Positions 2,073 to 42,597 of a stretch of 64,000 bases of DNA are shown in pieces. The notes under the pieces were generated by a model that saw only the letters and a list, made by a program, of their open reading frames with translations, had not been told where the DNA came from and made no database searches. Made by a program: the position numbers and the translations under genes. The stretch is taken from NCBI GenBank assembly GCA_030386875.1, contig CM059570.1, forward strand, positions 32,169,422 through 32,233,421, written 5' to 3'. Within the stretch, counting starts at the first letter, position 1; every line of letters starts with the position of its first letter. The DNA is from Morinoia aosen. Taxonomy: Eukaryota; Arthropoda; Malacostraca; Amphipoda; Talitridae.

Positions 2073-2647
2073 TCAAAGGTTTTGGTCCTCCCCAGTTTGC
2101 TTGCTGACATAACGCTTCAAAATACAAGACACGCGCTCAGGACCCATGGGCTTCTTCCTTCTAGTCAACTTGCGATGGTACACTCTCTTGATGTCATTCT
2201 TAACTATGTGATTGTCAGGCACTTTGTCAGGGTTTTTCTTAATCTTGCTTTTGTATTCGTACAGGGTGGACCTTGACGGCATTTGGAACAAGTTGTAGAG
2301 CGTTTCTCTGATGCCAAAGCCACAGCGGTTGGCAACAGTAGGGATCTGTATGGCGTCGTAGCCCCAGCGTAGTCCTTTAGGCCGCAACGACAGGCGCTGG
2401 CACCAGAAGAACTCGTAAGCTGACTTGCTCATCTTGGGCTTTATGAATTTCATGGCTTCTTTTTCAGAGTGAAATGAAAGGTTGGTCGAATTTTGCCTTG
2501 TTTTCTTGGTGTGGTAACACCGACGCACGTGGCAGCACTTCATTGCCTGCAGGTGGAGAGCGCGAGCCAAAATTTTCTTCTCCCGTTGCAACGTCTCTAT
2601 TTGCTCATCTAGGATTTTGAACGTCTCTTCCACAGACATCGTTGGAT
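2073..2647 (-). CDS. THAP gene exon 12: coiled coil and P-element/THAP9-like segment
   Basis: Acceptor CCCGTTTCAG at 2648, open to TGA at 2073-2075 (about 191 residues). An early helix with heptad character (FKILDEQIETLQREKK) is what usually follows a THAP domain. Then MSKSAYEFF ... MPSRSTLYEYKSKI, spaced about 50 residues apart, resembles the region before the catalytic domain of P-element and THAP9 transposases. No RNase H-like catalytic segment follows, so this copy looks non-catalytic or continues in exons outside the window. It could also be a separate short gene starting at ATG 2639, but the acceptor and gene context favour an exon. Confidence 0.7.
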
Positions 2648-8600: not shown

Positions 8601-11600
8601 GCTTTTATTACAAAGAACTTTTTGTATTCCACGGCAGGCAATTCATCTTCTACCGCCGAGGGCAGGCGTTGCCATCGACGGTTTTTCCTTCTGCCTGCTC
8701 CCGGCACTCGGCCATCAGATGAGGCCTCGGCAGGTCTCGAAGGTCTGGGTGGTTCATATGGCTTCATTGTCCACTCTGCACTTCCGTCACGTCGGCCTGT
8801 CCCCTCGCCACCTACAGGAAATTGAGATGACGGTACGACTCGTTTACCGGGTTCAGGAGAGGTAATTCCAGTGAGTGTATCCATTTGTGAGGGCCGTGTC
8901 GTCAACGTTGAAGTAGGTAAAGTATCAGAAGAAGAAGAAGCAAGCTCAAGTGTTTAGGAGACTCTTGTCGGTGAGGGTTCCCCCCCACCTATCCAGGCCG
9001 GCTCAAGCCGGAAGAGAACCCCCCGGGCGGTCAGTAGCCTACTGACGCGTCTCCGCGTTTAAGGCGGGCACACACTGACCAATAGGAATGAAAATCCCTC
9101 CCACCGTCGACCCCGGCCCGTGGCAGCCCCTATGTACGCCCGGGATAACAGGGGCTTTATCACCCGTAACTGCCGGGGTCCGGTTTTATTTACATGGGGG
9201 GCCTTCCCATGGCCCCCCACTTTGTCTGGCTGCTCCAGGTGAGCCTGTCTGCCACGGTTGAACCCACCAGGACATTAAGTCCTGACAGCATAGCCTCACC
9301 TTTCCTCACAGCACGCAAACCCTCCCACCACAATAAGGTAGGGGGACGTTGGGAGGGAAAAAAAAAAAAAAAAAAAGACGTAACAAACCTTCTAAATCCA
9401 TGGGTTCTATGGACAGGGATTCGCCAGAAGGAGTGTCAAGCCAGTTTCTGTTGGATAAACAAGATGCCTAATTAAATGTTCATCCCTAGATCATTATAGC
9501 AGAGATGATAAGCTAAATTTTGGCCTTCCGTAAATACAGCCATGCAACCGGCCCCAATTCTTAAGATTTTTTGTTGGAACATCATCAAAACTTGCTACCG
9601 AGAGAATAATATGAATGAAAATAATGCGCGATGGAAATAATGTGAAAGGATTCATTGCTTTAGAGAACATCCCTTATCAGAGTCGGTACAATGCAAAGCA
9701 TCATCCTAACACACAGATTAAATGTAAGAATAAGGGAACATCAAAAAGACTTTGAAAGGGAATCTTATCTCGCTTAGAGGAAGAGAAGAATAGCGGATCA
9801 GAAAATCAAGCTGCATTTTCAGAGGATCATGCAGGATTAAATTACCTGAAGAAAGATAGGTTACTCAATTCTTCATTTTTACACAATTTATTTTGCATGT
9901 AAATATGAGACATTCGCACTACCTGACTTGCAAAAAGCGAGTTCAGTAAATGTTTTGATAAGCGTATAAGTCTTTCAGGAGTTAAGTAAAGCGTAAAACA
10001 GAGAAAGGTTACAAAACTTTGACATGGAGAAGAATGTGCCACAGCAACTCGAAAACAGGCGTTGTTTCAAACACCTTTACATCAGGAGGATTTTAAAATT
10101 TCCATTTATAATGACTTAAAATATTCCATTTCTTATCAAATTTGTATCTCAAAGTGTACTTTGAAGTACACAGTCGAGTAGCAGTTCTTTCCCAAATCTG
10201 ATGTCAGTGATAACCAGATGCCAGTGCCGTTCTAACAACGATGGTCGTAACGATATCAATATGAGAGACATTCTGATGGCAAGATATTCCTATCACTGGA
10301 AAATTTCTTCACCAAAACAAAAGCCTGAACTAAGTAAGATATGAAGGTTCAAAGAACTGCGCAAATTGATACACGAACCTGTCGTGATGAGAGCGTCGTG
10401 CGTCATCAGAAAACTTCCTCGTACAGGTCTCATCGAGGCCGTTGTCGTACACACCGGAGCTGAGCAGCAGCTCACACTCGGCGTGCTCACAGCCCCGCGT
10501 TGGCCCGCCTGCCGACTTGTGCTGGCAGGGATGCCTCAGGGGGGAGTGGCTGAACACCGTCGGCACGGCATGCCCATACAACTCCCTGCTCATCGTAATT
10601 TCTACTAATAATAATCGCTACTGTAAGTAATAATCGTCACGGTAACAAACAATTGTTACTCTAAATAACACATTGTTACTCTAAATAACAATCATTTTTC
10701 TAAATAACAAACATTACTCTAGGTAACACATTGTTACTCTAAATAACAATCATTACTCTAAATAACAATCATTACTCTAAATAACAATCATTACTCTATA
10801 TAACAATCATTGCTGTAAATAACAATCATTACTGTAAATAACACATTACTCTAAATAACAATCATTTTTCTAAATAACAATCATTACTCTAGGTAACACA
10901 TTGTTACTCTAAATAACAATCATTACTCTAAATAACAATCATTACTCTAAATAACAATCATTACTCTATATAACAATCATTACTGTAAATAACAATCGTC
11001 ATTCTAAATAACAATTGCTACTCTAAATAACACATCACTATTGTACATAACAACCGTTACTGTGAACAACAATCGTTACTGTATGTAACATAAAAACCAT
11101 TACTGTAAATAATAATCACCATTCTAATCAACAATCCTTAATGTACAAAGCAATCATCACTGTAACTAGCAATCGTCACTGTAAAGAGCAATCGTCACTG
11201 TAAAGAGCAATCGTCACTGTAAAGAGCAATCGTCACTGTAAAGAGCAATCGTCACTGTAAAGAGCAATCGTCACTGTAAAGAGCAATCGTCACTGTAAAG
11301 AGCAATCGTCACTGTAAAGAGCAATCGTCACTGTAAAGAGCAATCGTCACTGTAAAGAGCAATCGTCACTGTAAAGAGCAATCGTCACTGTAAAGAGCAA
11401 TCGTCACTGTAAAGAGCAATCGTCACTGTAAAGAGCAATCGTCACTGTAAAGAGCAATCGTCACTGTAAAGAGCAATCGTCACTGTAAAGAGCAATCGTC
11501 ACTGTAAAGAGCAATCGTCACTGTAAAGAGCAATCGTCACTGTAAAGAGCAATCGTCACTGTAAAGAGCAATCGTCACTGTAAAGAGCAATCGTCACTGT

Positions 11601-14600
11601 AAAGAGCAATCGTCACTGTAAAGAGCAATCGTCACTGTAAAGAGCAATCGTCACTGTAAAGAGCAATCGTCACTGTAAAGAGCAATCGTCACTGTAAAGA
11701 GCAATCGTCACTGTAAAGAGCAATCGTCACTGTAAAGAGCAATCGTCACTGTAAAGAGCAATCGTCACTGTAAAGAGCAATCGTCACTGTAAAGAGCAAT
11801 CGTCACTGTAAATAGCAATTGTCACTGTAAATAGCAATTGTCACTGTAAATAGCAATCGTCACTGTAAATAGCAATCGTCACTGTAAATAGCAATCGTCA
11901 CTATAAAGAGCAATCATCACGGTAAATAGCAATCGTCACTATAAAGAGCAATCATCACGGTAAATAGCAATCGTCACAGTAAATAGCAATCGTCACGGTA
12001 AATAGCAATCGTCACGGTAAATAGCAATTGTCACTGTAGATAAAAATTGTCACTATAGATAACAATCGTCACTCTAGATAACAATCGTCCCTATAGATAA
12101 CAATCGTTACTATGAATAACAGTCATTACTATGGATAATAATCTTTACAATAAATAATATCCAAATGAGGTGTGACATCTGGATATCATACCCAAACCAC
12201 ACCAAAATTTTGACCAACAAGCATTTCCGAATATCATATCTTAACTACACCAAACTTTTACGCAACAAATATATCCAAATGAGGTGTGACATCTCAACAT
12301 TTTACCCCAACCACATTGAACTTTTGACCAAGTATTTACGAATATCATACCCTAACCACATGGACGTTAAGAGCAACGAGTTTATCCGAATGAGATGTGA
12401 CATCTGAAAATCATACCGTAAACACATCAAAGATTTGAGGAACAAGTATATTCAAATATCACACCCTCCACACCAAACTTTCACGCAACAAATGCATCCA
12501 AATGAGGAGCCACATCTCAACAAGGTACCCTAACCACGAAGGTTTCATGTGCTTAGGACTACCTGAATGAATTGGTGACCACGCCAGGCCTGGACGGCAC
12601 CGAGAAGAAGCAGGAGTCGTGGAAGTGCCCCACACACAGCCTGTAGGAGGAGGACGCAGGCGGCACCGTCGAGTTGAGGAACCTGAGCGGCAGGTGATCG
12701 TACCCGATGTTGAGCAGCCACGCCAGGCATCTGCAACACGGCAATAAGTTAGATTGATGTTAATTTAAGCCTCCATAACCACAACAAAGGCATAACAAAG
12801 AGAGGAAAGAGGGGTAACGCAACAACGGCGTACCAGAGAGAGGAAAGAGGGGGTGACACCTCTAGATTAGATTTTAGTTTAATCTTTCCTCACAAAGGCG
12901 TTTCAAAGAGAGGAAAACGGAAGGCACCATATAGTATAGAGTTAAGGAAACGCGGAATCTATACACAAGGTGCATAAAAACCGTAAGTTGAAGAAGAAGT
13001 TAATGAAACAAGATAAAAGTTGAAGAAGAAAGTAGTAGATGCTGAAAAATAGGACAGCAGTAAACTAGAAAAAAATGGTCCATAACAAATTAAAAAATTT
13101 ATTCTATTTTAACAAAAGAAAAGTTCAACTAACCGTTAGCTTAGGACCTCACATATTCTCGCTGGGAGCGCTAATTCCCATTGATACAATAGTTGTATCC
13201 CCTTGAGAAGAAGGCAATAAGTTAATGCGGTGTCGCACCTGGGACAAGGCAATAAGTTAATGCGGGGTGTCGCACCTGGGACAAGGCAATAAGTTAATGC
13301 GGGGTGTCGCACCTGGGACAAGGCAATAAGTTAATGCGGGGTGTCACACCTGGGACAAGGCAATAAGTTAATGCGGGGTGTCACACCTGGGACAAGGCAA
13401 TAAGTTAATGCAGGGTGTCACACCTGGGACAAGGCAATAAGTTAATGCGGGGTGTCACACCTGGGACAAGGCAATAAGTTAATGCGGGGTGTCACACCTG
13501 GGACAAGGCAATAAGTTAATGCGGAGTGTCACACCTGGGACAAGGCAATAAGTTAATGCGGGGTGTCACACCTGGGACAATTCAATAAGTTAATGCGGGG
13601 TGTCACACCTGGGACAATTCAATAAGTTAATGCGGGGTGTCACACCTGGGACAAGGCAATAAGTTAATGCGGGGTGTCACACCTGGGACAAGGCAATAAG
13701 TTAATGCGGGGTGTCACACCTGGGACAAGGCAATAAGTTAATGCGGGGTGTCACACCTGGGACAAGGCAATAAGTTAATGCGGGGTGTCACACCTGGGAC
13801 AAGGCAATAAGTTAATGCGGGGTGTCACACCTGGGACAAGGCAATAAGTTAATGCGGGGTGTCACACCTGGGACAAGGCAATAAGTTAATGCGGGGTGTC
13901 ACACCTGGGACAAGGCAATAAGTTAATGCGGGGTGTCACACCTGGGACAAGGCAATAAGTTAATGCGGCGTGTCACACCTGGGACAAGGCAATAAGTTAA
14001 TGCGGGGTGTCACACCTGGGACAAGGCAATAAGTTAATGCGGGGTGTCACACCTGGGACAAGGCAATAAGTTAATGCGGGGTGTCACACCTGGGACAAGG
14101 CAATAAGTTAATGCGGGGTGTCACACCTGGGACAAGGCAATAAGTTAATGCGGGGTGTCACACCTGGGACAAGGCAATAAGTTAATGCGGGGTGTCACAC
14201 CTGGGACAAGGCAATAAGTTAATGCGGGGTGTCACACCTGGGACAAGGCAATAAGTTAATGCGGGGTGTCACACCTGGGACAAGGCAATAAGTTAATGCG
14301 GGGTGTCACACCTGGGACAAGGCAATAAGTTAATGCGGGGTGTCACACCTGGGACAAGGCAATAAGTTAATGCGGGGTGTCACACCTGGGACAAGGCAAT
14401 AAGTTAATGCGGGGTGTCACACCTGGGACAAGGCAATAAGTTAATGCGGGGTGTCACACCTGGGACAAGGCAATAAGTTAATGCGGGGTGTCACACCTGG
14501 GACAAGGCAATAAGTTAATGCGGGGTGTCACACCTGGGACAAGGCAATAAGTTAATGCGGGGTGTCACACCTGGGACAAGGCAATAAGTTAATGCGGGGT

Positions 14601-20600: not shown

Positions 20601-23600
20601 GGAAGTAGGTGGCACAGTTCACTGGCTTCACCCCATGGGAGAGGCAGAGGAGTAAAGAATGAAGGAGTAAAGTTAACTAAAAAACTACTCTAGCTGCTTC
20701 TGCAATTTGAGTAGTTTATTCTGTGGAGGGTAGTTAGGGTTACCAGTGGTAGAGGAAACAAGGTATGGTCATGGAGAAAAATATACCTCCTCTTGTTTGG
20801 CTAGCCAATAGAAAGGCGTCATTTAGAACTCAATGATGACGTCATCACAACGCCATATCGTTCGGCTAATAGTGGAGCCTGATTTGGAGGTAGCAGTGCT
20901 ACCAGATGCAATATGAGCGCTGCTATTGATTTGTTGCCATGACGTTAGCAAAACCACACCGTCAACAAAGAAAGACTGGTTTGAACCTACCTTGTTTCCT
21001 CTACTGTGGTTACCGCTAAGGAGCGTGTTTTCCCTAGTATACACAAAGCAGAACAGACACATTCAGCACTCTCCGCATACTTAAACGTAAAGGAATCCTA
21101 CACATTCTTAAAGACAGCTTTGCGCTCTGAAAATGGGCTAAATTACAATCCCTCAACCCACTATCTGTAAGAGGCCGCATACAGCAGTGTAGCAACAAAT
21201 AAATCAAACAAATTCAAAATTATAACTTAACTAAAAGGAAACGCAAACACACAAAAAAAGTAAAACTAAGTCTTAAATAAAACGGGAATATTAATAGGAG
21301 GACAAATATGCAGTGTCCTAACCCACAAATCAGAGGTCAAAACAGGAGAGTGGATTAAGTGATAATTTCACCTCATAGCGGCGTAGATGTCTTTCAGGCA
21401 AAGTGGCCTAGTTCCTAGTTAGTATCTTGGCTAAGAAAAGCCAGTTTGGCAACCCAGCGATGAACACTACGGCTCTAGCTTGAGTGTCCTAAAATTCTGT
21501 GTTTTGTGGGTTAGGACACTCTGGATACTTGCCCTTCAATTCTAAATCTTCTTTAGCAAACGATATTTCAAGATAAAAGGCCACAGAACTCATTCCAAAC
21601 AAGCAAAATTTACAAAACCCATTAGACGCGTCCCAGGACAGCTTCAAACGTAAATCAGTGTAAGTGCAGTTTCATCCGAATCAAAACGGTAAGCTATTGA
21701 ATTTATTCCTTACGAGAGGTGATTACAGAATATATGAAGCGTCCCAAACCAGTTTTTAAAACAAAATCAATAGGAGCGTAGCTTCACCAGAACTGGACTG
21801 AGACGCGTCTCAGAACAGCTTTTACCCTAAATCAAAAGAAGTGTAGCCAACAGAACTGGAGGGGGCTGATCTCGGAGACTGACCTCGGTAAGCAGCGAGG
21901 CGGCGAAGTGTCTCATCTGTGCGTCGTCGGAGATGATAGCGAATGGACGGCACTTCTTCAGGAGAGGGTGGAGCGTTGCCTGTGATGGTAGGAGTCTGTC
22001 AGTACCCCGTGTCTGGTACACTGAGTTTGTGTCAGCATCACGTGTCTGGTACACTGAGTCAGTATCAGCATCACGTGTCTAGTACACTGAGTCAGTGTCA
22101 GCATCACGTGTCTAGTACACTGAGTCAGTGTCAGCATCACGTGTCTGGTACACTGAGTCAGTGTCAGCATCACGTGTCTGGTACACTGAGTCAGTGTCAG
22201 CATCACGTGTCTGGTACACTGAGTCAGTGTCAGCATCACGTGTCTGGTACACTGAGTCAGTGTCAGCATCACGTGTCTGGTACACTGAGTCAGTGTCAGC
22301 ATCACGTGTCTGGTACACTGAGACAGTGTCAGCATCACGTGTCTGGTACACTGAGACAGTGTCAGCATCACGTGTCTGGTACATTGAGTCAGTGTCAGCA
22401 TCACGTGCCTGGTACACTGAGTCTGTGTCAGCATCACGTGTCTGGTACACTGAGTCTGTGTCAGCATCACGTGTCTGGTACAGTCTGTGTCAGCATCACG
22501 TGTCTGGTACAGTCTGTGTCAGCATCACGTGTCTGGTACAGTCTGTGTCAGCATCACGTGTCTGGTACAGTCTGGGTCAGCATCACGTGTCTGGTACAGT
22601 CTGTGTCAGCATCACGTGTCTGGTACAGTTTGTGTCAGCATCACGTGTCTGGTACAGTCTGTGTCAGCATCACGTGTCTGGTACAGTCTGTGTCAGCATC
22701 ACGTGTCTGGTACAGTCTGTGTCAGCATCACGTGTCTGGTACAGTCTGTGTCAGCATCACGTGTCTGGTACAGTCTGGGTCAGCATCACGTGTCTGGTAC
22801 AGTCTGTGTCAGCATCACGTGTCTGGTACAGTTTGTGTCAGCATCACGTGTCTGGTACAGTCTGTGTCAGCATCACGTGTCTGGTACAGTCTGTGTCAGC
22901 ATCACGTGTCTGGTACAGTCTGTGTCAGCATCACGTGTCTGGTACAGTCTGTGGCAGCACTAGTTACTTAATACCCACTAGTAAACTGATATGCTGAGTC
23001 AGTCTCACAATCCAACTCAACAGACGGAGCATACAAATGAAACACTTCATTCCTATGGTATGAGGCCAAATAATGTATAAAGGAGACAGAGCCCGCAAAA
23101 GAATTAAGTATTTAATTTACTTTTTATATCAAGTCAGCGTTTAAAAGCTAGAGTGTTACTTATAACTTCTAGAATTATAGAGTTCTTTCAAGATTAAATA
23201 TAAACAACAAAATTGAATCATTACAAGCTTACTATATGATATTGAAAACGTCAAAAGCAGCAAGGTCCTTTTCACAGGAATATAACTCTAACAACTCTAG
23301 TTGCTGCACGCTTATCAACCAATGTGTTATTCATTCATGTGAAGCTAACACTAACGTACATCAAGTATCACTGATATTCGAACTTCTTATTATGCTACTC
23401 ATTTGAAAATTTGCATTTTGCATACTTGCAAATTGCCGCCATGTGCATAGAAACAGAAAGTTGAGAAAGAATTTCATGAAACAAGATAAAAGTTGAAGAA
23501 GAAAGTAGCAGGTGCTGAAAAACAAGACAGCTGTGAACAGAAAAGAATTGTCCTTGCCAAAAAAATTTATTGCAACAAAAAGTAGCGTTACCTAGCTCTC

Positions 23601-26600
23601 AGCTTGAGACGTGACATAATCCCTGCAAAGAAACAAAATACACACCAGTGGTGGAGTCAGGCAGGGTGGTAGAGTCCGGTAGGGGCACCTGCAGCAGCTT
23701 CTCGGTGGCCACCACCTTCACGGGGTTGTCTTCTAGGCGCGCCCTCTGCACTCGCATCCGCTCCGACTCTGGTGGAGCACGTTTATGTTAGGTGTGTATT
23801 GAGGCGTATGGTCACGTCAGAGCGTTGATAAGTAGATGAGATTAGATGCAAGTTTAAGCCTCCCTAACCGCAACAAAAACGTTCCAAAGAAAGGAAGATG
23901 GCACCATTTAGTATGAAGTTAAGGGAATGCAGAATTTATGCACAAGGTGCATTGGTAAGTAAGACACGTTTCGAGACAAATTGTAGTCATGTCTTGACCC
24001 TTATACTTTCAAATTTACCATAAAACTTCTACTTTATGGATGAGCCTGAGATATTATCAATTATTACCTATGCAAAAGCATCATCCTCATTTTTCAGCTC
24101 AATGCTCATTCATCAACACAATTGGAACGACCAAAAGAATTCCGTTAAAGAATCGGATGACCTTAGTACACCACAGTTTAGTTTGTACCACTTTTTACAA
24201 GTGATGTTCATTTACATTGAATCAGCAAAAAAAAAACATCACACACAAAATAACAAGAATCACAAAATATCAAAGTAAGACAAAGACATTACGTTGGCCA
24301 GCAAGAGAAGCACTATGATTGAGTAAGGGTTTCTGGAAGATGAAACTCGTCTTGTAACACAGATATTAACACAGACTTGAAAGTAGAAATTCAACTTAAT
24401 TGTTACATCAATATCTGCTGCAACTTGATGACAGAACTGACGATGATGAGGCATACACTTCCCTTGCTACCTCTGCATTGAAACGATGATGAAGCACTTA
24501 ATTAGTGAAACTTTGGTTAAAAAAAGATGATGAAGCACTTAATTAGTGAAACTTTGGTTAAAAAAAAGGATGATGAAACACTTAATTAGTGAAACTTTGC
24601 TAAAAAAAGATGATGAAACACTTAATTAGTGAAATTTGATTAAAAAACGAAAATGAAGCACTTCGTTTATGACCCATTGATTAGAGCACAATGATGAAGC
24701 ACTAAGCCAAGTGTGAAACTGTCAACTAGTATGCCAGTTTCATGCACTCCATTGCTTCAAATTTGTTCTCACACACCTGAACTAAATTTTCACTGCCCAA
24801 TAAAGGCTTAACACAAGTGGGCATTCAACCAAATCCCTCACTAGCATTAAATCAATACCCTCTTTGGGAAGTATTTTTCAACCAAACCGATTTGATCATG
24901 TCCTATAATGGTGATACCTCGCTTCAAAAGAACAGAAACCGCTATGAGAAGACTAGATTTTTTTTAGTAATTTAGGCACACTTTCAAAATGAATGTTCTG
25001 AGTAAGCAAGAGCAAACTTCAAATGGAACACATACATAAGTAACAGTTATATTAGAGACACAAATTTGCACCATGAAAAGCACGACCAGCAATTTCTATT
25101 CAAAAGAGCACCATGAAAAGCACAACCAGCAATTTCTATTCAAAAAAGCACCATGAAAAGCACGACCAGCAATTTCTATTCAAAAAAGCACCATGAAAAG
25201 CACGACCAGCAATTTCTATTCAAAAAAGCACCATGAAAAGCACGACCAGCAATTTCTATTCAAAAAAGCACCATGAAAAGCACGACCAGCAACATGGAGC
25301 AATTTACTTCTACAAGCAGGAGCGCAGGACTTCTTGCTCGGACTGGCAGCAGCAACAGCTCTGGGCAGCGCGTTGAAGACGAGGGCGTTGCTGTTGAGGA
25401 AGTAGCCGCTGCTGAAGTGCAGCGAGCACAGCACCAGGTTGCCTGGCATGCTGCCGTGCAGCTGCAGCAGCTCCAGCAGGTCCTCGCGTCTGCAGCTCTC
25501 CAGCCAGCTCTGCACGCACGGCAGTGCTTAAATGAGGAGTTGTTTGGCAGTGAAGACAATTAACATGAAGGTCTGCTAAGCGGAATACATTAGGCTTCTG
25601 TATCCATTAACTGCAGGGCACAGATCAGTACATTAGTTAGTTTAAGCCTCCCAAGCTACAACAAAGGTGTCCTAAATATAAAAGAGCTGGAGGCACCATT
25701 TAGTGGGTAGGGGGATGCTGAATCTATGCACAACATGTGTGTTCCCACAAAAGATCCTCTGCACATGAAAATAAGAAGCTGAGAAGGAAGCTTGTAACCA
25801 GATTAGATGAGTTAATTTAAGCCACCTTAACTGCAACAAAAGCATTCCAAAGAGGGAAGGAAGAAGGCACCATTTAGTATAAACTTTAGGGAATGGAAAA
25901 TCTACACATAGGGTGCATAAAACCAGGAAGTTAGAAAAGAAATTTATGAAAAAAAGATAAAAAAATGAAGAAGTAGTAGGTGCTTAAAGACAGGAAAACA
26001 GTGAACCAAAAAAAGAAACGAGAGTCCGTAGCAAAACAAAAAAACTATTCTATTTAAAAAAAAGGCAGAACTATCTTCTAGCTCAGGACCTCGCATATAT
26101 TCCCTACTGGGAGCGCTTACTCTTTTATATACAACACTTGTATCCCCCTGACAGGACTGCAGTGCACAGTAAACATGAAGGTCTACTGGGCCCCATGCAT
26201 CAGGCTGTAGAACCCAGCAAAGCACTAGGAAAAAGGGGTCAAATTTACCAAGCCCAGCATTGCATGCAGTGTTCAGCTCGGTCACTAACAGGCATGATAA
26301 TAAAGAACATCCATTTAAAGCCATAAAATATCAATTTTATGAAGCAGCCAATGATGAACTGCAGCAGTGCAGCATTATGAAAAGGACAGCAGTGAACTGA
26401 GAAAAATGGTCCATAACAAAACAAAAATCAACTGTGCTTCTACAAAAAGAAGGCTAACATAACGTTTACCTCGGCACCTCACATTTGATTCTTGGGAGCG
26501 CTAATTCCTGTGTATACGATATCTGAGTCTTCCAAGGTATCAGGATCTAACATTTCAACACTTTGAACAAGAGTTGCCATGCATGTATGCATGTTTTATG

Positions 26601-29600
26601 TGAAATTCTAATTGGGAATAAAGGAAGAGAAATAAGACGAAATTTTAAACAAAAATACAAAGAACAGAAAAATTTTGGTGCATGCAATTCCAAAAGAAAA
26701 TACCCAGAAGCTATGTAAAAAGTAGGCACTAGAATTAAAGTAATATATTAAAGCAATGGCAGAAAAATTTTCAGATCACATTAAAACCCCAAAGAAAAAA
26801 CTACCTACTTTGCGAGTGACATTGCAACTCTTGCCCCTAGAGAAAAATAACAGTAATTTTGCGAGTGACATAACAAGGCATGGCACTAAATAAATAACAC
26901 TAATTTTACAAGTGACATGTCAACTCTTGCCATAAAAAATAACCATAATGTTGCAAGCAACATGTCAACTCTTGGAACTAGAGAAAAACAGCTATTATCC
27001 TAGTGACAAAAACATTAGCTCTAAATAGAAATATTTTTGGATCAAGAAAGTAACTCTCACATAAACTAGATAAGAAGAATGTAGCTCACTTTAGCAAGAT
27101 CGATGTCATCGGGGAAGGTGTAGAGCACCGAGTTGGTGCTGGTGGAGATGCAGGAAGGCGCACAGCACGCAAAATAGAAGTTGCTGCTCTCCTCATCTCC
27201 GTCTGGTTCCTCTTTTTTGGGGAACGAGATGGGCAGCAACGGAGGGTAAATTTTGCTCTTCAGGATTCCCTGACCACAAACAAGAGAATGTAATGATTAA
27301 ATTAGTCGTTAGTTTTAGCCTCCCTACCCGGCAACAAATGCGATCCAAAGAGAGGAAGGAGGAAGGCACCATTTAGTATGGAGTTAAGGAAACGCAGAAT
27401 CTCCGCAGAAAGGGCATAGAAACAGTAAGTTGTGAAAAGAAGATTATGAAACAAGATCAAAGTTGAAGAAGATAGTAGTAGGAGCTGAAGAACAGGGCAG
27501 CAGTGAACCAAAAAAAGGTGGTCCTTAACATAACAAAAACATTTTATTTCAACAAAAAGAAGGCCTACCTAACTCTCAGATCGGGCCCTCACATTGTCCC
27601 CCTGGGAGCGCCAATTCCCATAGATACAATAGTTGTATCCCCCTGAGGGGCAAAGAATGTAAATACACCCTGTGTTTTGATGCATAAGTGTGTTTGATTA
27701 GATCATTCGAAGAAAAGGCTACAAATGAAATAATGTTGAAGCATGTGCAATAATTATTCCACTTCTGGTGATTGAAATTGTCATCGTTTAGGGGGGGAAC
27801 TATTTTCTAGTTCTTTTTTACTATTGTGCACAATGCATTATCAATTACGACCTTAGGGAAAACGAATATCAGAGGAGCATGTTCTACAGAATGTGACATT
27901 ATAAATATACAAACATTCAAGCCCAAAGGCTATGGTTCTTAAGCTCAAGAATATGATTACCACGTCCCAAGGGACATTGCTCAATCTAAGGATTAGTGGT
28001 TAAAAGAATGACTTTTTTTATAGTTCACCTGCAGGGGTAAAATCATACAACACGTTGATTAAATCGCGAGATTCCACATTTTTAAACCATGTCCAATGAA
28101 GAAAATTGGACTATATATAAACAATCGTATAGAAATGTTAATAATATATCTAGATCTCACAAATATTTCATAGAAAAATACATCAATACAAAATAAAAAA
28201 AAATATACAGATAAAATGATTAAAATATAATACATAATCAACAGATAACCAACCAGCTTAGTTACTTAAAAAGAGAAAATATCTCACTACATAAAATTAT
28301 TGAAAGACTAACCTTGAATGAAACTATCAAAGTTTTTATACTTATAAATTAACAATCAGTACAATGAAAACATGGTATGCTCACCAATCATTCTCTTTCA
28401 AGAGATTTTCATGAGCCTAATGTTTATGACTAAACTCTACATTGACCACCATCCTTTCTGGAGGACATTAGGGTGTCTCTCACGTCGTTCTTATTTTCTG
28501 AATGCTTTGATGGAAATTTCACATTTCCTGGGTTTCATTGACGATAATATAATATGAGAAATTACCATAATATTTTGTTCAAGACCCTGAAAATTTTGTT
28601 GTTAGAGGGTTACCTGGCTGATACTACAATAAAGTGAATCCTTCTGAGGTAACGCAGGGGTTTTTGTTGACGAGATGCAATGTTTATCATAATAACATGA
28701 AGGATAAAAAAAGATGGCACCATCATTACCATCAAAACACTCCTAGAATGAGAGAAGATTAATTTAGTAAGCTTGATTAATTTCGGGTTTTAGAATACAC
28801 AGGAAACTAAACCTGTAGAGCAGACACTAACAGGCATGTGGTCCGAGTCGTGGTGCGAGTGCTCCAGACAGAAAGTGAAGTAGGCGGTGTCAGTAGCTGG
28901 GTCCTCCCGCTTGTCTATCTCAGCCATGATCTGCACGTCCAGCACTCTGCCCTGCGCTATCATCTTCCCGTCATTGGCATCACTTTCTGACGGGCAAAAT
29001 ATAAAAGAATAAGTACCAACTTGTAAAAAAAAATAATTACAAACACGTGGACAGTGGTCAATCCTACCACTGCTTTATTTTGAATTTGTTGCGGTTCTTG
29101 TGTTGAGACATCTTTATAACCCAATGATTTGATTTGTATTTCTGATGCATCAATTTCTGGAAATATAACATTTATTTCTCTTAAAAAGTTATTTTCATTA
29201 ACTATACAGCTCCTATAAACATGCAACTTTGAATAATTATGCAGCACATTCACAATTTCACTCATTAACACTTCAAGTTAAAGTAGCAGCCTATTTCAAT
29301 TTAAAAAACAATATTTCCCATTTACATAAGAAAAAGATAATGCATTGTTTGAAGTAATATTTATTTTTTGAGTTTATCTAGTGCATAATAATTAATAAAT
29401 ATCTAATACAGTACTAAATGACCATCACAATAACTAGGAAAAAAATATAAATTTTTGTTTGATAAGTAGCATTCAAAATCTTATGTCCATCAAAAGTTTG
29501 TGTTTCAGTTCAGATATAAAAAATATATTGGTTAATTTTGTCATCACATTACAGGTACAAACAAAGTTTCACCTGGTACTGGAAGCTACTATTAGAAAGA

Positions 29601-32600
29601 GTATCATTTAGCAATGCAAAAACACATTCACATTGAATATGATAGGTACATCAGAAAAATATATTAAAACAAACAAGCATTTTAACAACGTTCAATCGGC
29701 AAATTTGCACATCAATTTCAAGCCCATGACTTGCTAAATCCCTTAGGTAAATTACACAAAAAATTCACAATATTGCAAATTATTAGAGCTGCCTAAAAAT
29801 TTTTAAAGTGAAAACCAGACATTCTGCAGCCAAGTAAAAAATACCGCACACTCAGACAGCAAACCATCTTCTAACACTGCTTTCATTCATATCCCAGTAT
29901 CCCATCAACTTATAAATATAACCTCTTATAAGCACACATCATGACTTCCTCACCAAATTGAAGAGGATCATGAGAAGGTTCAAAAAACTTGAGTGGATTA
30001 TTCGCATCAATGGTGAAGAGAGTTGGGACAGCGTTGTGAACTAATCGCTTGCACTCGTTGCTCATGAAGCAGCACTGGGAGAAGTGGGCAGCACACATGA
30101 TGTAGTTGCGGAAAAAGAAGTGCTTGTCTGCGCAGTTTACAAAAACAGTCTCCAGATCCCTTCTTCTTGAGTTGATGATCCACTTTAAGCATCTGGAATT
30201 ATATCAAAATGAATCAATATCAGTAGGAGATGGATAAAATTGCTCAATGTCTAATTCCAAAAGTGAATAGAATTCACATCCCTGAGTTAAAAATAATCTC
30301 AGGATGCAATAATCATTTTTAGTTTCTGGTTTCATAACAAATATGAGAATTCAGAAATAATTTCGTGAAAAATTTATTAGATATGCAAAATTTTAGGATT
30401 CTCACTGAAAAAATAAGACCATGACACAAAAATTTGGGAGTTTGCATTTCCACACAAAAATTAGCTTGAAACTATAAAGCCTATGTTCTTCACCAAGTTG
30501 GTTAAAATTTGTTATGAAAGTTCAAAAACACAGTCAAAAATTTATTCCCATTTCACAACAGCAAATAAAAACTGGAGCACCAAATGAATTTTTGAATGCT
30601 GAATTTAAATTTTGTTTAAAAATGCACAAATGGTAAAGAACTGATATGATTGTGCAACAAAGTGTTTGATTATTGCCTCAAAAAGTATCCACCCCACACA
30701 CACCCACAGTAGTTTATAAGCAATACTAAGTAACTCTCATTCAAGAGATTTTTAAATAACAAGAATGCTGTAGAGCTTTCCAGGAAAATATGATATACTT
30801 TTTACTTATACAACAGCAGACATCAAGAAATTTCTGACATCAGTTTCAACAAGAGGTTAACATTCAACACAGATTCAAATTAGCTGATGGCTAAAGAATT
30901 ACCAGAAAGATATAAGAACTAATTGTTCATTTGCCTAAAAGTGGTGAAGGCTATAGAAAAAATTCATCTATGCTAAAAAAAAAAACAATCTCAACCAATG
31001 GTGACACAATTTCTTGGTTTTCATCATTTCAACCCACTTATGTCCACCACTCTAAAGACATCTCTATAACATTTAAAAGTGTGCGCTAAGAAGATAGGTT
31101 TGAGTAAAGAAGAATCCTCTTGAAATGATTTGGAAACAGATGGGAGAAATGAATGCAAAATTACAATGAAAGCAGTCCTTAGAATTGAACAAATCTGATC
31201 ATGTACAACATGTATGACAATTTTATTGAAATAAACACATTTAAAAAATTATCTAAACTTTATACAGGAGCATTTAACAAAGTTGGTAAACCTTTGCATC
31301 ACTGTGCTGTAGTCTGTGATGGCAAAGATTTAGTTACTTGGGTAAAATTGTGTTAGTAATGTTTGGATAGAGAAAATCTCAATGCACTATCCTAATAACA
31401 CAATCCAAACAGAAAAGTTTGATGGAGGTAGCCTAATGGTATTGGGCTTCTTTCTTTCTTCTACATCCTGGATAAATTCACATAAATGAAAGGAAAATTA
31501 AAGCTCAGACCTATTACAGGATTCTGGGCAGTAATATTGTATAGTATGCAGTTGACTTGAAGTCACAAAGAGGATCTACATTGCAGCACAATAATGATCT
31601 AAAACATGTGGCAAGAAGCATTGCGGGGTGGTTTGATATGAAGGAAATTATAACAGCCGAGTCAGTTGATAAACCTAAATCCTACTGAGAACTGAACTGA
31701 TTCAGAAAAAAAATCCTACTAAACATCTAAAAAATTAAAATGGACCAAAAGGATGTTTGAAGAATGAACCAAGATATGTATTAGTATTTGCAAGAATTTT
31801 GTAAGTAAATATCTCCATATTCAAAATTTGAAAGCTGTGCTAATGATGAAAAGCCATATCATCAAATGATAATAGCATTTGTAAATACATTGGGTATTTT
31901 ATGATAAACTCATTAATTTATCTGGTACTTGTGGCTTATCTGTCACCACTTTTAATTTATGGTTTCCTTTTAATGTTAAGGTTAGGTTAAGTTAGGTTAG
32001 GTTAGGTGATTAACAAAATGGGTTATTACCAAAATGGGTTATTACCAAAATGAATCTCTGGGACATTCTAAGAACTGAAGAGGAAGGTCCCAGAGATTCA
32101 TTATACACATATGGTAAGTAGACAAATTGAATTAGAAATAAATACAAATCAACAAGGATACCTTTTCACATGAAAAATCCGTTCATACTGTCAAGAACAT
32201 CAATTCAATATTCATAAAACATATGTTTCTCACTTTTTCCCCTAAAAGCATTTTTTCCCCTCAACAAGCAGTGACAGTTAACCCATAAATACCATTTATT
32301 CCCTACTGTAATTCTGAATGCCAAATTTGTTTTCAGCACACAAAAACGAATAACATGCTAAATTTTTTATTTCTTTGGAAACTTTTGTATACTACATTTT
32401 GGACACTCACTGCACCCTCTATCTGAAGGCCTTCAATACATGGTATGTTTTAGTCTTGAACATCCCTGAAGCTAATGCTCAAGCTACTTCATTCATACTT
32501 CCCAGTAATGCTATATTACACTGACATTGAAAAATCTAAATCTTTCTCATGTAACAAGCCATATCATCTTCCTAGAATAATGAAATACACCAATGAAAAT

Positions 32601-32731
32601 TGAAAATAACTAAAATATTTTACAATTTCTCACCTTTTTGAATCAACTGGAAATCTGAAGAACACCATATCCGGGCACTTCCCCCTGTCATTGAGGCATG
32701 AGGAAAATGCACACTTTGTTTTGATCTGCAT
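2073..32731 (-). CDS. Multi-THAP protein gene (12 exons, whole gene span)
   Basis: Spliced minus-strand gene reconstructed by reading GT-AG bounded open segments. Exons are 32634-32731, 29954-30192, 28832-28986, 27090-27269, 25308-25509, 23646-23768, 21884-21979, 19888-19998, 16971-17097, 12563-12730, 10379-10585 and 2073-2647. Frame is kept across the first ten junctions. The product of about 750 residues carries three THAP domains (residues ~1-92, ~199-276, ~423-511), each with C-x4-C, an FP turn, a W, C-x2-H-F and an AVPTxF-like end. A coiled coil and a P-element/THAP9-like helix-turn-helix segment follow. THAP domains are zinc-dependent DNA-binding modules, so a nuclear DNA-binding role is inferred. 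The specific function is unknown. Exon 11 to exon 12 needs an alternative donor or an unseen exon. Whether coding ends at 2073 or continues left of the window is not certain. Confidence 0.8.
3306..7019 (-). pseudogene. LINE ORF2 polyprotein with one nonsense codon
   Basis: 1238 codons from ATG 7019 to the stop at 3306. Domains in order: APE endonuclease (WNIRG, QET, GDVNAKH, SDHYPV); linker; reverse transcriptase (NYRPIALTSCLGK, FDMHKAYDTV, LPQGSVMS, YVDDF); RNase H (YTDGS, TAELYG, DSKSV, GNERAD); and a C-terminal zinc motif (CERCRVPLTVKHFLAEC). A single TAA at 5571-5573, between the endonuclease and reverse transcriptase, interrupts an otherwise open frame. Everything downstream stays in frame, so the lesion is recent. 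The enzyme would nick target DNA and reverse-transcribe LINE RNA. Confidence 0.88.
7016..8884 (-). CDS. LINE ORF1 protein (Gag-like, zinc knuckles)
   Basis: About 622 residues from ATG at 8884 (no in-frame ATG upstream; the open frame extends to 8905 only through non-ATG codons). A central array of zinc knuckles is visible: CFKCQAFGHGAKTC, CANCSMEQHESPC and CANCEGPHPASSTSC. This is the nucleic-acid-binding signature of I/Jockey-group ORF1 proteins that coat LINE RNA. The N-terminal part is basic and Pro-rich, and the C-terminal 250 residues are low complexity. The stop overlaps the ORF2 start as ATGA, which suggests termination-reinitiation for ORF2. It appears intact. Confidence 0.85.
   Translation of the reverse strand: MDTLTGITSPEPGKRVVPSSQFPVGGEGTGRRDGSAEWTMKPYEPPRPSRPAEASSDGRVPGAGRRKNRRWQRLPSAVEDELPAVEYKKFFVIKANDNSPMAEVDVAKAYREICHRLGGEPTKINEVRNGSLLVEVKNLHQSRCITTIKSLAGVEVTVSPNERLNQTKGTIWYKNSPRCTDARILEELERFGAKEVYCFKRRERGVLTPGRVYLITFDRCRLPDTVSIGWTRCLVRQYVPRPRRCFKCQAFGHGAKTCRAQRGTCANCSMEQHESPCVRPARCANCEGPHPASSTSCSHYEIEAEILATQVRESISYGEAKRTVTSRYVSPRTSYADVAQHRRLNSQPIFWQPEQPHSRSVAARQDEQEPEPLSLVDASALRSQSLAQKPPVRVTQPLAQSGPSNKEISKDPASTTHQKGSSNEQFQSIPSIITSRKRTKSDISPPQDVKQTKTPKTLRFMEDTPADIQGQAIPSQEKDPVRDSVATTGGRAEHERSTVRESRSAVRGPSRGDKQERGSGRDLSLPTKEKNSSHIDSEKQRNIVTQRIRSLERVTTVPKEVAAHLLKIFPPPKSLPTGPPPAVPVHPWIDRPPVSTSPGLTCAAGEGIEKGPTYITSKTDKK
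9388..10378. other. Intron sequence, no gene seen
   Basis: AT-rich. Minus-strand segments were read for an extra exon linking exons 11 and 12. The only open candidate with plausible borders, about 9846-9928, keeps phase 2 and so would not repair the frame. Nothing else is supportable. Confidence 0.5.
10379..10585 (-). CDS. THAP gene exon 11: end of THAP domain 3
   Basis: Acceptor GATGAGCAG, then ELYGHAVPTVF supplies the AVPTxF end of domain 3 (506-511). A Cys/His-rich linker follows (C at HPCQH, GCEHAEC). The drawn donor GACAG|GTTCGT leaves phase 2, which does not fit exon 12. Donors at 10425 (CT|GTACGA) or 10455 (CG|GTGTGT) would leave phase 1 and join cleanly. The true 3' border is therefore open. 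Confidence 0.75.
10605..12135. repeat. 19-bp satellite array with homogenised core
   Basis: Left block units read AACAATCATTACTCTAAAT (19 bp, variable). The core at about 11170-11810 is AGCAATCGTCACTGTAAAG (19 bp) repeated over 30 times with almost no change. The right edge drifts to AGCAATCGTCACTGTAAAT and GATAACAATCGTCACTCTA. One period runs through all three blocks, so it is a single array with a recently expanded centre. Confidence 0.95.
12150..12540. repeat. Degenerate ~60/120-bp tandem repeat
   Basis: ATCCAAATGAGGTGTGACAT recurs at about 12160, 12270, 12385 and 12490, alternating with ACCAACAAG..TTTCCGAATATCATA blocks. It ends just before THAP exon 10. Confidence 0.7.
12563..12730 (-). 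CDS. THAP gene exon 10: middle of THAP domain 3
   Basis: Acceptor GTGTTGCAG completes R444, then CLAW (W448) matches CLKW of domain 1. The second zinc pair is C476-x2-H479-F with CFF following. It ends NSF with donor CAG|GTAGTC, phase 2. Unlike domains 1 and 2, the end of this domain sits in a further exon. Confidence 0.84.
12750..13200. repeat. Dispersed ~350-bp repeat copy beside exon 10
   Basis: Starts TTAATTTAAGCCTCCATAAC about 25 bp upstream of the exon 10 acceptor and runs to GATACAATAGTTGTATCCCC. The 5' block is partly duplicated internally (second AAAGAGAGGAAA block near 12900). Confidence 0.75.
13205..16195. repeat. 37-bp minisatellite, about 80 copies (3 kb)
   Basis: Unit GGCAATAAGTTAATGCGGGG plus TGTCACACCTGGGACAA repeated almost perfectly. 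Rare variants occur (GGGACAATTCAATAAG at about 13575-13620, CCCGGG units near 15160-15210). In the gene's sense each unit contains CCCAG|GTGTGA. The array lies in the intron between exons 9 and 10. Confidence 0.97.
16196..16970. other. Intron sequence, no gene seen
   Basis: Contains a local direct duplication: CTTCCTACGATAACCTTTCATGG occurs twice (about 16425 and 16535). A short degenerate repeat with CACTNCTA..GTNCGTCAC spacing lies at 16830-16960. No coding signal. Confidence 0.5.
16971..17097 (-). CDS. THAP gene exon 9: first half of THAP domain 3
   Basis: Acceptor ACTGCCACAG, donor AGCAG|GTAATT, phase 2. It carries C423-x4-C428 (CCYALC) and the turn VSFPRNSS. The intron splits an arginine codon (R444) in phase 2, exactly as in domain 1 (R33). 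Confidence 0.83.
17265..17460. repeat. Dispersed repeat copy (partial) upstream of exon 9
   Basis: Carries GATTAGATGTTAGTTTAAGC, GGCACTATTTAGTTTGGAG and CATAGAAACAGTAAGTTGAG in family order, truncated after about 190 bp. Confidence 0.7.
17984..18777. repeat. 403-bp direct tandem duplication
   Basis: The segment beginning GACTCGAGAGAAAATAAGGC occurs at 17984 and again at 18387 and is almost identical through CCATTTGCTACCTTGAAGGA. Only a few single-base changes separate the copies (for example TCTTCC against TCATCC near the end). It is intronic, with no coding content. Confidence 0.93.
18778..19690. other. Intron sequence, no gene seen
   Basis: AT-rich, with only short chance reading frames. 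GTTGCTGCACGCTTATCAACCAATG near 19537 recurs near 23300 together with the ATACATCAGGTATCACTGA-type block, so part of it is a low-copy repeat. Confidence 0.45.
19690..19870. repeat. CCA/ACC-rich simple repeat
   Basis: CCCCACCATCACCATAACA-type units repeated, then (ACC/AAC)n. It adjoins the donor of THAP exon 8 on the gene's downstream side. Confidence 0.75.
19888..19998 (-). CDS. THAP gene exon 8: basic helix exon, copy 2
   Basis: 111 nt, acceptor CATCTCCGCAG, donor GAG|GTGGTG, phase 1-1. It ends LRRKDETLRRLAACR, a clear duplicate of the exon 7 end, preceded by an acidic linker (DLEDSDDAEP). Symmetrical phase 1-1 exons can be duplicated without breaking frame, which fits the pair. Confidence 0.75.
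20040..20300. repeat. Two diverged dispersed-repeat fragments upstream of exon 8
   Basis: TTAGATTGAATATTAGG at 20043 and GATTAGATTGAATTTGAGGC at 20165 are each followed by a ..TTAG.GTGGA.T.A.GG.AAT..AGAATAAG block. These resemble the first half of the ~350-bp family. Diverged, so lower confidence. Confidence 0.45.
20300..21830. other. Intron sequence with small inverted and degenerate repeats
   Basis: No gene seen. Near 21312, TGTCCTAACCCACAAA is mirrored by TTTGTGGGTTAGGACA near 21503, an inverted repeat about 200 bp across. At 21600-21840 three diverged copies of an ACGCGTCCCAG..ACAGCTT..AAATCA block lie in tandem. Confidence 0.5.
20785..20850. promoter_or_regulatory. CCAAT box and CRE-like palindrome (tentative)
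   Basis: GCCAATAG near 20802 and ATGACGTCAT near 20833, which contains the consensus cAMP-response element TGACGTCA. They lie in an intron of the THAP gene with no recognised transcript nearby. Chance occurrence is possible. Confidence 0.25.
21884..21979 (-). CDS. THAP gene exon 7: basic helix exon, copy 1
   Basis: 96 nt, acceptor CCATCACAG, donor GAG|GTCAGT, phase 1-1. The end reads LRRRTDETLRRLAAYR, nearly repeated in the next exon. The E-box tandem array starts about 25 bp upstream of the acceptor. Coding is supported by frame continuity and by the similarity to exon 8. Confidence 0.74.
21990..22958. repeat. 33-bp then 29-bp minisatellite carrying CACGTG in each unit
   Basis: Left half unit GTGTCAGCATCACGTGTCTG plus GTACACTGAGTCA (33 bp). 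Right half is the same minus four bases with CAGTCT (29 bp). About 30 units, nearly all with the E-box palindrome CACGTG. It abuts the acceptor of THAP exon 7. The long open frames across it on both strands come from the periodicity and are not genes. Confidence 0.95.
22960..23440. other. Intron sequence, no gene seen
   Basis: AT-rich. It contains a second copy of the GTTGCTGCACGCTTATCAACC block also present near 19540. Confidence 0.45.
23445..23955. repeat. Dispersed-repeat fragments flanking exon 6
   Basis: The second half of the family (CATAGAAACAGAAAGTTGAG to CGTGACATAATCCC) occupies 23445-23630 on the gene-downstream side. The first half (GATTAGATGCAAGTTTAAGC to CACAAGGTGCATT) occupies 23834-23955 on the upstream side. 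Exon 6 lies between, so these are two different copies. Confidence 0.7.
23646..23768 (-). CDS. THAP gene exon 6: linker
   Basis: 123 nt, acceptor GCTCCACCAG, donor CTG|GTGTGT, phase 1 at both ends, open in the continuing frame (residues 292-333). It begins KSERMRVQRARLED (basic/acidic helix-like) and ends in a Pro/Ser/Thr stretch with PDSTT twice. No domain recognised. Fragments of the ~350-bp repeat lie on both sides. Confidence 0.7.
23960..24480. other. Intron sequence, no gene seen
   Basis: AT-rich. Only short chance reading frames on both strands, and no splice-bounded exon supportable. Confidence 0.45.
24482..24665. repeat. About 42-bp tandem repeat, 4-5 copies
   Basis: GATGATGAAGCACTTAATTA followed by GTGAAACTTTGGTTAAAAAA, with small length changes in the A-run. 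Confidence 0.85.
25068..25292. repeat. 40-bp tandem repeat adjoining exon 5
   Basis: Unit CAAAAAAGCACCATGAAAAG plus CACGACCAGCAATTTCTATT, over five copies. The last unit merges with the flank of the exon 5 donor, from which the array seems to have grown. Confidence 0.93.
25308..25509 (-). CDS. THAP gene exon 5: second half of THAP domain 2
   Basis: Acceptor GTGCGTGCAG, then SW (W226), second zinc pair C252-x2-H255-F and a degenerate AVPTIF equivalent, ALPRAV (271-276). Donor AGAA|GTAAAT, phase 1. Compared with domains 1 and 3, the intron lies two codons nearer the tryptophan and in phase 0. The 40-bp tandem array immediately downstream is built from the sequence just beyond this donor. Confidence 0.82.
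25625..26530. repeat. Three dispersed-repeat copies upstream of exon 5
   Basis: A first-half fragment at 25636-25745 (TTAGTTTAAGCCTCCCAAG), a nearly whole copy at 25797-26160 ending TATCCCCCTGACAGG, and a second-half fragment at 26380-26530 (GGTCCATAACAAAACAAAAA to TGGGAGCGCTAATTCC). Confidence 0.72.
26805..27015. repeat. Degenerate ~57-bp tandem repeat
   Basis: GCGAGTGACATTGCAACTCTTG-like units with CTAGAGAAAAATAACAGTAA spacers recur about four times with substitutions. Confidence 0.65.
27090..27269 (-). CDS. THAP gene exon 4: first half of THAP domain 2
   Basis: Phase 0 exon of exactly 60 codons (residues 165-224), acceptor TGGTCAG, donor AAA|GTGAGC. An acidic linker (EEPDGDEESS) leads into C199-x4-C204 (CCAPSC) and the turn LYTFPDD. 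A ~350-bp dispersed repeat starts about 30 bp upstream of the acceptor. Confidence 0.82.
27295..27650. repeat. Best-preserved ~350-bp dispersed repeat copy
   Basis: Runs from TTAGTTTTAGCCTCCCTACC to GATACAATAGTTGTATCCCC plus CTGAGGGG. The right end is rich in small palindromes (CCCCCTGGGAGCG, GATACAATAGTTGTATC). No terminal inverted repeats or coding capacity seen, and class unknown. Confidence 0.75.
27655..28830. other. Intron sequence, no gene seen
   Basis: Very AT-rich sequence between exons 3 and 4, without recognisable element borders or further splice-bounded exons. Confidence 0.45.
28832..28986 (-). CDS. THAP gene exon 3: linker with His-rich segment
   Basis: Acceptor CCCGTCAG and donor CCT|GTTAGT, 155 nt, fully open in the frame set by exon 2 (residues 113-164). 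The end reads FTFCLEHSHHDSDHMP, a Cys/His cluster that could bind metal and is loosely like the C-x-H-x-H end of FLYWCH/FAR1-type domains. No family is assigned. High GC relative to the surrounding AT-rich intron supports coding status. Confidence 0.72.
28990..29950. other. Intron sequence, no gene seen
   Basis: AT-rich. A 103-codon minus-strand frame at 28960-29271 has no recognisable features and runs into the exon 3 acceptor region out of frame. Confidence 0.45.
29954..30192 (-). CDS. THAP gene exon 2: second half of THAP domain 1
   Basis: Acceptor AATTCCAG|A completes R33, then CLKW puts the conserved tryptophan at residue 37. The second zinc pair is C66-x2-H69-F, followed by AVPTLF at 87-92, the canonical end of a THAP domain. 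A short linker follows to donor TTG|GTGAGG, phase 1. The domain is about 92 residues, usual for THAP. Confidence 0.87.
30660..31900 (+). pseudogene. Tc1-like transposase relic
   Basis: A TCAAAAAGTATCCACCCC-type left end occurs near 30680, as seen in Tc1 elements. MAKELPERYKN begins at 30886. GGSLMVLGFF lies near 31425. QHNNDLKHVARS (the D-N-D-x-K-H block) is near 31585 and NLNPTEN near 31672. Frames are broken by many stops and shifts, so it is an old, dead copy. It lies in intron 1 of the THAP gene, opposite to the gene. Confidence 0.75.
31976..32007. repeat. Short GGTTA/TTAGG-type run
   Basis: AGGTTAGGTTAAGTTAGGTT-type units, the arthropod telomere motif in interstitial form, only about six units. 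Confidence 0.6.
32051..32100. other. Perfect 14-bp hairpin
   Basis: TGAATCTCTGGGAC at 32051-32064 pairs with GTCCCAGAGATTCA at 32087-32100 across a 22-nt loop. It is in intron 1. Too short a stem to call a microRNA. The surroundings (32101-32630) show no gene. Confidence 0.4.
32634..32731 (-). CDS. THAP gene exon 1: start codon and first half of THAP domain 1
   Basis: ATG at 32731 in a good context (GCAGCC before it). It opens with MQIKTKCAFSSC, the usual THAP N-terminus with the first zinc pair C7-x4-C12, and reaches FFRFPVDSK before donor AG|GTGAGA. The exon ends in phase 2 inside the codon for R33. A pogo-type element begins only about 140 bp upstream of this start, so the promoter is either very close or a 5' UTR exon lies farther up. 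Confidence 0.85.
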
Positions 32732-39006: not shown

Positions 39007-39010
39007 TACG

Positions 39011-39021
39011 CTCTGCTACCA
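39011..39021 (-). other. Copia primer binding site (initiator tRNA-Met)
   Basis: In sense TGGTAGCAGAG follows the 5' LTR after two bases. It is complementary to the 3' end (CTCTGCTACCA) of animal initiator tRNA-Met. Confidence 0.75.
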
Positions 39022-41607: not shown

Positions 41608-42510
41608 CTAATGATTCAGCACTGCTTTCATCATTCTTTCAGAAAATATGCTCCACCCAAGGTCACCTCTAATGGCTTCTGTAGCTGTCCATTTTGGAGC
41701 ACCCAATGCTAACCGTCCTACCTTATTTTGTATTACATCCAGCTTTTCAAGATCACTTCCATTCCAGGCAAGAACACTCATACCATATATGACACTAGGT
41801 ACAGCAACATACTTCCACATTCCTCTCACACATTTGTATTTGTTTGCTCTGTATCTGGCCACACTACCTAACCATCCACTCCACTGCATTGCTTTAGCCA
41901 CTTTCTCACCTTCAGTTCTAGTACATCCATCTTCACTCATCATACAACCTAGATATTTGTATTCTTTTGTTCTACCTATTCTGATTTCTCCAATATTCCA
42001 CAGTCTGTCTCTATTAGTCTCATCACTATTTATAACCATAACCTTGCTTTTGTCGGCACCAAAGTTTATCTTGAAATCTGTACTATATCCGTTCACAATG
42101 TCAAGCATCCTTTGCAGTTCATGTCCACATTCACTAACCACAACCACATCATCAGCATACAACAAACAGCTCAGTCTCTCATTACCAACTTTCAGTCCTA
42201 AGCCACTCCTAAGTCGAACTGCTAATTCTTCTGTGTACAATCCAAACAACTGGGGAGGCAGAGTACAGCCCTGTCTCACTCCTCTAAAACTCCTCACTTG
42301 CCCTGTTTCCAAATTTCCTAATCTGTATATTGCGCTTGTGTTCTCATATAGACTTTGTACAATTTTTTCTATTTTTCTGCTAAACCCAACTTTTCTCAAA
42401 ACTTCAAAGAGCCTAACCCGATCCACTCTGTCATACGCTTTTTCAATATCCAGGAATGCTAAATACACCTTCTTATCATCCATCCTCATTTGCTCAATTA
42501 TTTCACTCAC
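41608..42510 (-). pseudogene. LINE copy 1 ORF2 remnant (reverse transcriptase)
   Basis: About 300 residues still open: FLDIEKAYDRVDR, VRQGCTLPPQLF and LLYADDVVVVSE motifs, about the middle third of the 1138-residue ORF2. Compared with copies 2-4 there are small deletions (for example RLRSGLG for RLRGSGLG) and a frame break after 41608. Confidence 0.85.
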
Positions 42511-42597
42511 TACAATTAGATTATCTTCCCACGTCTATCTTGCCTAAAACCATTCTATTCTTCACCTAGGACTCCTAATTCCTCAAGTAAATTTTTC

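Follow-up and report, generated by a model that had tools for sequence, protein, structure and literature searches.

The minus strand of the analyzed window (the whole stretch of 64,000 nucleotides of DNA) most likely carries a single protein-coding animal (probably arthropod) gene of 13 exons, whose 779-residue product has three zinc fingers of the THAP (C2CH) type where one is usual (we put the probability of this reading at roughly 0.8). The exons run from position 32731 down to 2073, have GT-AG borders and joined, in a scripted assembly, into a single open frame with a spliced product of 2340 nt (779 amino acids plus stop). They are small and lie scattered among the debris of mobile elements over a gene span of about 30.7 kb. 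The frame opens with an ATG at 32731, which is immediately preceded by in-frame stops, and it terminates at a TGA (2073-2075).

Exon structure of the gene model

The exons were found by inspecting the minus strand by eye in parts, outside 3400-8900 (a LINE) and 13300-16200 (for the most part a tandem array), and subsequently by scripted assembly (Table 1). Three of the twelve junctions, i.e. the donors of exons 3 and 6 and the acceptor of exon 9, were moved from the splice site that was first selected by eye to keep the reading frame. Exons 6, 7 and 8 are all of phase 1-1 and each of them can be skipped without a break of the frame. The initial annotation described twelve minus-strand GT-AG segments in one frame. 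The strand, the borders and the continuous frame hold, and 13 exons fit, though versions with twelve exons also stay open (exon 6, 7 or 8 skipped, or exon 12 omitted and another acceptor used for exon 13). The related claim that each half domain constitutes a short exon applies to the first and second domains, which occupy two exons each, but not to the third, which is spread over three.

Table 1. Coding exons of the modelled gene, listed from start to stop codon in coordinates of the window. THAP1, THAP2 and THAP3 denote the first, second and third THAP domain of the 779-residue product and are distinct from the PDB proteins of the same names.
Exon	Position	Strand	Content	Basis and remarks
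1 (coding part)	32634..32731	-	Start codon and first half of THAP1	Donor AAAAG|gtgaga; junction recovered by the splice-pair scan; weak codon score (2.5)
2	29954..30192	-	Second half of THAP1	Pfam THAP 27.3 bits alone, 44.4 bits with exon 1
3	28832..28986	-	Linker	Held out; sixth in the codon-composition ranking of the minus strand; frame-fitted donor CCT|gttagt, the weakest junction
4	27090..27269	-	Acidic linker and first half of THAP2	With exon 5: Pfam 38.9 bits, splice scan 30.1 bits, PDB THAP11 E 5.7e-05
5	25308..25509	-	Second half of THAP2	As exon 4; Pfam 17.2 bits alone
6	23646..23768	-	Linker, phase 1-1	Held-out codon-composition rank 8; frame-fitted donor
7	21884..21979	-	Linker with RTDETLRRLAAYR motif, phase 1-1	Homologous to exon 8; codon score prefers another frame
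8	19888..19998	-	Linker with RKDETLRRLAACR motif, phase 1-1	Homologous to exon 7; held-out codon rank 9
9	16971..17097	-	First half of THAP3	Exons 9-10: splice scan 19.7 bits; exons 9-12: Pfam 32.6 bits; frame-fitted acceptor
10	12563..12730	-	Second part of THAP3	As exon 9
11	10379..10585	-	AVPTVF end of THAP3 and linker	Pfam match to profile position 87 of 87; held-out codon rank 7; poor pyrimidine tract at the acceptor (0.29)
12 (59 nt)	9389..9447	-	Doubtful linker	GT-AG, in frame; codon score -1.0; can be omitted if exon 13 begins at 2673
13	2073..2647	-	Possible coiled-coil helix, basic C-terminus, TGA stop	190 whole codons open before the stop

The three THAP domains

Three stretches of the product match the Pfam THAP profile (PF05485), with 95.5 bits in all. 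Scanned alone, the exon sets 1-2, 4-5 and 9-12 scored 44.4, 38.9 and 32.6 bits, respectively, which is in each case above the gathering cut-off of 23.9 bits. The presence of three THAP domains, as proposed in the initial annotation, is thus borne out by the profile comparison that it had suggested for exons 1-2, 4-5 and 9-11, where the third set was scanned with exon 12 included. Likewise, the two internal domains lie where they had been placed (~199 and ~423): the first Cys of the three domains is found at residues 7, 199 and 423 of the protein.

All three domains contain the C-x4-C, F-P, W and C-x2-H-F elements that comprise the C2CH zinc ligands, and the second and third Cys are spaced by 53, 47 and 47 residues in the first, second and third domain, respectively. 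The AVPTxF-like end that was also ascribed to the domains is present in the first (AVPTLF) and the third (AVPTVF) but missing in the second, which ends in a non-canonical ALPRAV and whose Pfam match extends no further than position 61 of the 87 in the profile. Sequence identity to the first domain is 30% for the second and 34% for the third.

A phmmer search of the PDB sequences related the first domain to THAP2 (2d8r, E 4.9e-07) and the second to THAP11 (2lau, E 5.7e-05), and returned no match for the third domain on its own. A profile built from the three domains of the product also matches PDB THAP1. We take these three PDB proteins to be human, and we assume that THAP2 and THAP11 each have a single N-terminal THAP domain, unlike the product described here with its three.

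The position of the introns within the domains provides a further connection. The first and the third domain are interrupted at the same place, 10 nt before the Trp codon and in phase 2, as expected for copies of one ancestral split domain. The intron of the second domain lies 3 nt before the Trp codon and is of phase 0.

Coding signal and duplicated linker exons

The codon composition of exons 1, 2, 4, 5, 9, 10 and 13 was used for training, and exons 3, 6, 7, 8 and 11 were held out. Open AG..GT segments of 55-400 nt between positions 1300 and 32800 were then ranked after masking of the LINE and the tandem arrays. On the minus strand, the eleven best segments fell, in this order, on exons 5, 10, 13, 9, 4, 3, 11, 6, 8, 7 and 2. 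The held-out linker exons thereby took the sixth to tenth ranks on that strand (exon 7 being ranked in another frame), and outside the model no segment of this strand scored above 7.9, versus 21.0 for the lowest of the top eleven. Plus-strand shadows of these exons scored as high as 39.6, and the best non-exon segment of that strand reached 11.1. Exon 12 is devoid of a coding signal and that of exon 1 is weak (scores in Table 1).

Exon 7 scored 22.6 in a frame other than that of the model, versus 4.2 in the modelled frame. Exons 7 and 8, which encode RRTDETLRRLAAYR and RRKDETLRRLAACR, respectively, are homologous linker exons. A comparison over 14 codons showed differences at 9 of 12 silent sites and at 4 of 30 replacement sites (pS 0.75, pN 0.13), and the changes were distributed as 2, 2 and 9 over the first, second and third codon position. 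The excess of silent change supports the modelled frame of exon 7 and past selection on the protein, as far as a small sample of 14 codons can.

One gene or several

That all exons are part of one transcript is suggested by the continuity of the reading frame. An alternative is that adjacent THAP genes (two or three in a tandem arrangement), each with its own promoter, start and end, have been wrongly joined. In line with such an arrangement, the junction between exons 3 and 4 depends on a donor that was selected to fit. Moreover, reading through beyond exon 2 leads to a stop within ~15 codons, and 31 polyadenylation-like hexamers are found between the start and the stop codon, located in introns 1, 2, 3, 6, 7, 8, 9, 11 and 12. 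Exons 3 and 6 contain Met codons at which a separate gene could start. By contrast, no Met precedes the first Cys within the exon that opens the second or the third domain, which implies that each of these domains needs at least one upstream coding exon. In addition, the linkers between the THAP domains have a coding composition and are compatible in frame, and just one coiled-coil-like C-terminal exon was found. Taken together, the codon ranking, the excess of silent change between exons 7 and 8, the intron positions and the absence of in-exon Met codons favour one gene, and we consider a set of tandem genes unlikely. Overall, the sequence is best read as that of one host gene encoding three THAP domains.

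It is very unlikely that the exons represent a degenerate gene or a THAP relic of transposon origin, such as the remnant of a P-element-like transposase, that no longer makes protein. There are indeed mobile-element frames in intron 12 and beside the gene. Nevertheless, all 13 exons are open and free of frameshifts, the duplicated exons 7 and 8 show the excess of silent change described above, and the Pfam and PDB searches of the 779-residue product and of exon 13 revealed no transposase domain, whether RNase H, GTP-binding or other. The product has an N-terminal THAP domain in common with the P-element transposase and THAP9, and a possible zipper-like helix is predicted at the start of exon 13.

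Splice-pair scan and chance control

Chance matches were controlled for by a scan in which GT-AG joins over introns of 60-6000 nt with open flanks were translated and compared with a profile of the solved THAP1, THAP2 and THAP11 structures. The number of peptides scored was 389,961 for the minus strand, 333,779 for the plus strand, and 224,168 and 203,546 for two dinucleotide shuffles. Three modelled junctions were recovered to the exact base, i.e. those between exons 1 and 2 (39.4 bits), exons 4 and 5 (30.1 bits) and exons 9 and 10 (19.7 bits), whereas the maxima of the controls were 16.4 bits for the plus strand and 13.9 and 14.6 bits for the shuffles. Matches of at least 5 bits numbered 876 on the minus strand (where they are redundant), 3 on the plus strand, and 1 and 2 in the shuffles. 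Other matches on the minus strand were a join of the tail of exon 2 to part of exon 4 (22.0 bits), which is no modelled pair, and one at the junction of exons 10 and 11 (16.0 bits).

When the seven pieces of the THAP domains were scanned with Pfam as single exons, exon 2 scored above the cut-off and exon 5 below it (Table 1). A chance assembly of unrelated open frames is practically negligible as an explanation of the THAP motifs: although the remaining five of the seven pieces gave no Pfam THAP match as single exons and the third pair exceeds the best control by a modest 3.3 bits, the other two pairs far surpass the control maxima and each of the three domains exceeds the Pfam cut-off. Thus, the Pfam scores and the join scan already speak against chance for all three domains, where the third is more strongly supported by the Pfam score with exon 11 included than by the splice-pair scan. 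More generally, a scan of this kind can recover short exons that are split within a domain from repeat-rich raw sequence.

The C-terminal exon and the proposed function

The model of exon 13 that was predicted from the single sequence is poor (pLDDT 42.1) and shows one long N-terminal helix, comprising residues 5-48. Exon 13 had no significant match in Pfam (best E 0.11) and no relative in the PDB, where two weak matches concerned unrelated proteins (E 0.34 and 1.2). Pattern matches in viral contigs (18) and in prokaryote genomes (61), both unlikely places for an animal gene, yielded no confirmed relative. We had suspected a helix-turn-helix likeness of exon 13 to the P-element transposase and THAP9, and this candidate was rejected, as Pfam assigned the piece to no family and the PDB provided just the weak matches mentioned. 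An HCF-1-binding motif, [DE]HxY, is absent from the product. According to a preprint, the human THAP proteins except for THAP10 have a coiled-coil region (PMC13228809). Considering this statement together with the predicted helix, our guess is that the helix of exon 13 may form a coiled coil.

The product is probably a nuclear DNA-binding regulator, which would bind zinc and DNA, dimerise and exert a regulatory role. By analogy, every one of the fingers would recognise a short site by means of one zinc ion. The arrangement of three fingers on long linkers would then confer avidity or allow the reading of composite or repeated sites, and the helix at the C-terminus would dimerise the protein or recruit partners. 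A more speculative and rather improbable extension is a splice-tunable, multi-finger regulator specific to one arthropod lineage. Its three diverged fingers, separated by duplicated basic exons that are skippable in frame (exons 6, 7 and 8, all of phase 1-1), would jointly read composite DNA sites, perhaps the sites of resident transposons.

Relation to known multi-THAP genes

Drosophila CG10631 has many THAP domains; our literature search returned no paper linking this gene with THAP. Among the matches listed for crustaceans, only one paper carried the THAP term in the text covered by the search, and it is on CtBP (PMC9907507). Literature searches aimed directly at multiple or tandem THAP domains returned no pertinent paper. 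Several precedents exist for more than one THAP domain per protein. HIM-17 of C. elegans has six (PMC9757741), and the above preprint describes multiple THAP repeats per gene in Drosophila, C. elegans, the sea star P. miniata and the sea urchin L. variegatus, and states that such genes are absent from holothurians, human, mouse and zebrafish (PMC13228809). Moreover, another study reports an expansion of the THAP gene families in several animals and calls the functions of the invertebrate members primarily unknown (PMC10027918).

The modelled product would share with HIM-17 the presence of several THAP domains in one host protein, with three domains versus six, where the comparison is one of domain count. 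It would likewise have the repeated THAP domains in common with the multi-THAP genes of the four species, as these are described. The internal THAP domains, which had been called unusual, are therefore so in a relative sense, in view of these precedents, and the gene probably adds a further, intact-looking member to a known kind of protein. It is a member that annotation could easily miss, and it should have some limited value for comparative work on the cooperation of multiple fingers.

Repeats and mobile elements in and around the gene

The introns contain several tandem repeats. Intron 9, which separates the initial two exons of the third domain, consists mostly of ~81 copies of a 37-bp unit (13211-16199, 99% matches), and a 402-bp tandem duplication (17984-18778, 99% matches) is located in intron 8. 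Two further arrays end within 50 nt of an acceptor: one with ~30 copies of a 29-bp unit (22024-22959) near that of exon 7, and one with ~26 copies of a 57-bp unit (10613-12118; also described as 19-bp units) near that of exon 11.

Intron 12 harbours a non-LTR retrotransposon on the minus strand (3306-8953). It is oriented like the gene and has an endonuclease, a reverse transcriptase and an RNase H domain. There is an in-frame stop between its endonuclease and reverse transcriptase frames, and its upstream frame (7019-8953) had no Pfam match. Several frames of another LINE, which look alike by eye, occur in both orientations at 41608-59014. Within this region a pair of frames was scanned by Pfam: 55056-58283 matched endonuclease and reverse transcriptase, and 53709-54866 gave a weak GDSL lipase-like match, as is known for ORF1 of CR1-type LINEs.

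Beside the gene, the minus strand contains an uninterrupted frame of 1404 amino acids for a Ty1/copia-like polyprotein with RVT_2 and an integrase core (34801-39015). A possible start of an LTR-type element lies on the plus strand at 62058-64000, where a DUF7041 frame is followed by a reverse transcriptase frame that runs off the window. Finally, in line with an arthropod host, intron 1 contains a short CCTAA/CTTAA run (TTAGG-like) on the minus strand at ~31975-32007, which we take to resemble an interstitial telomere repeat of the arthropod type.
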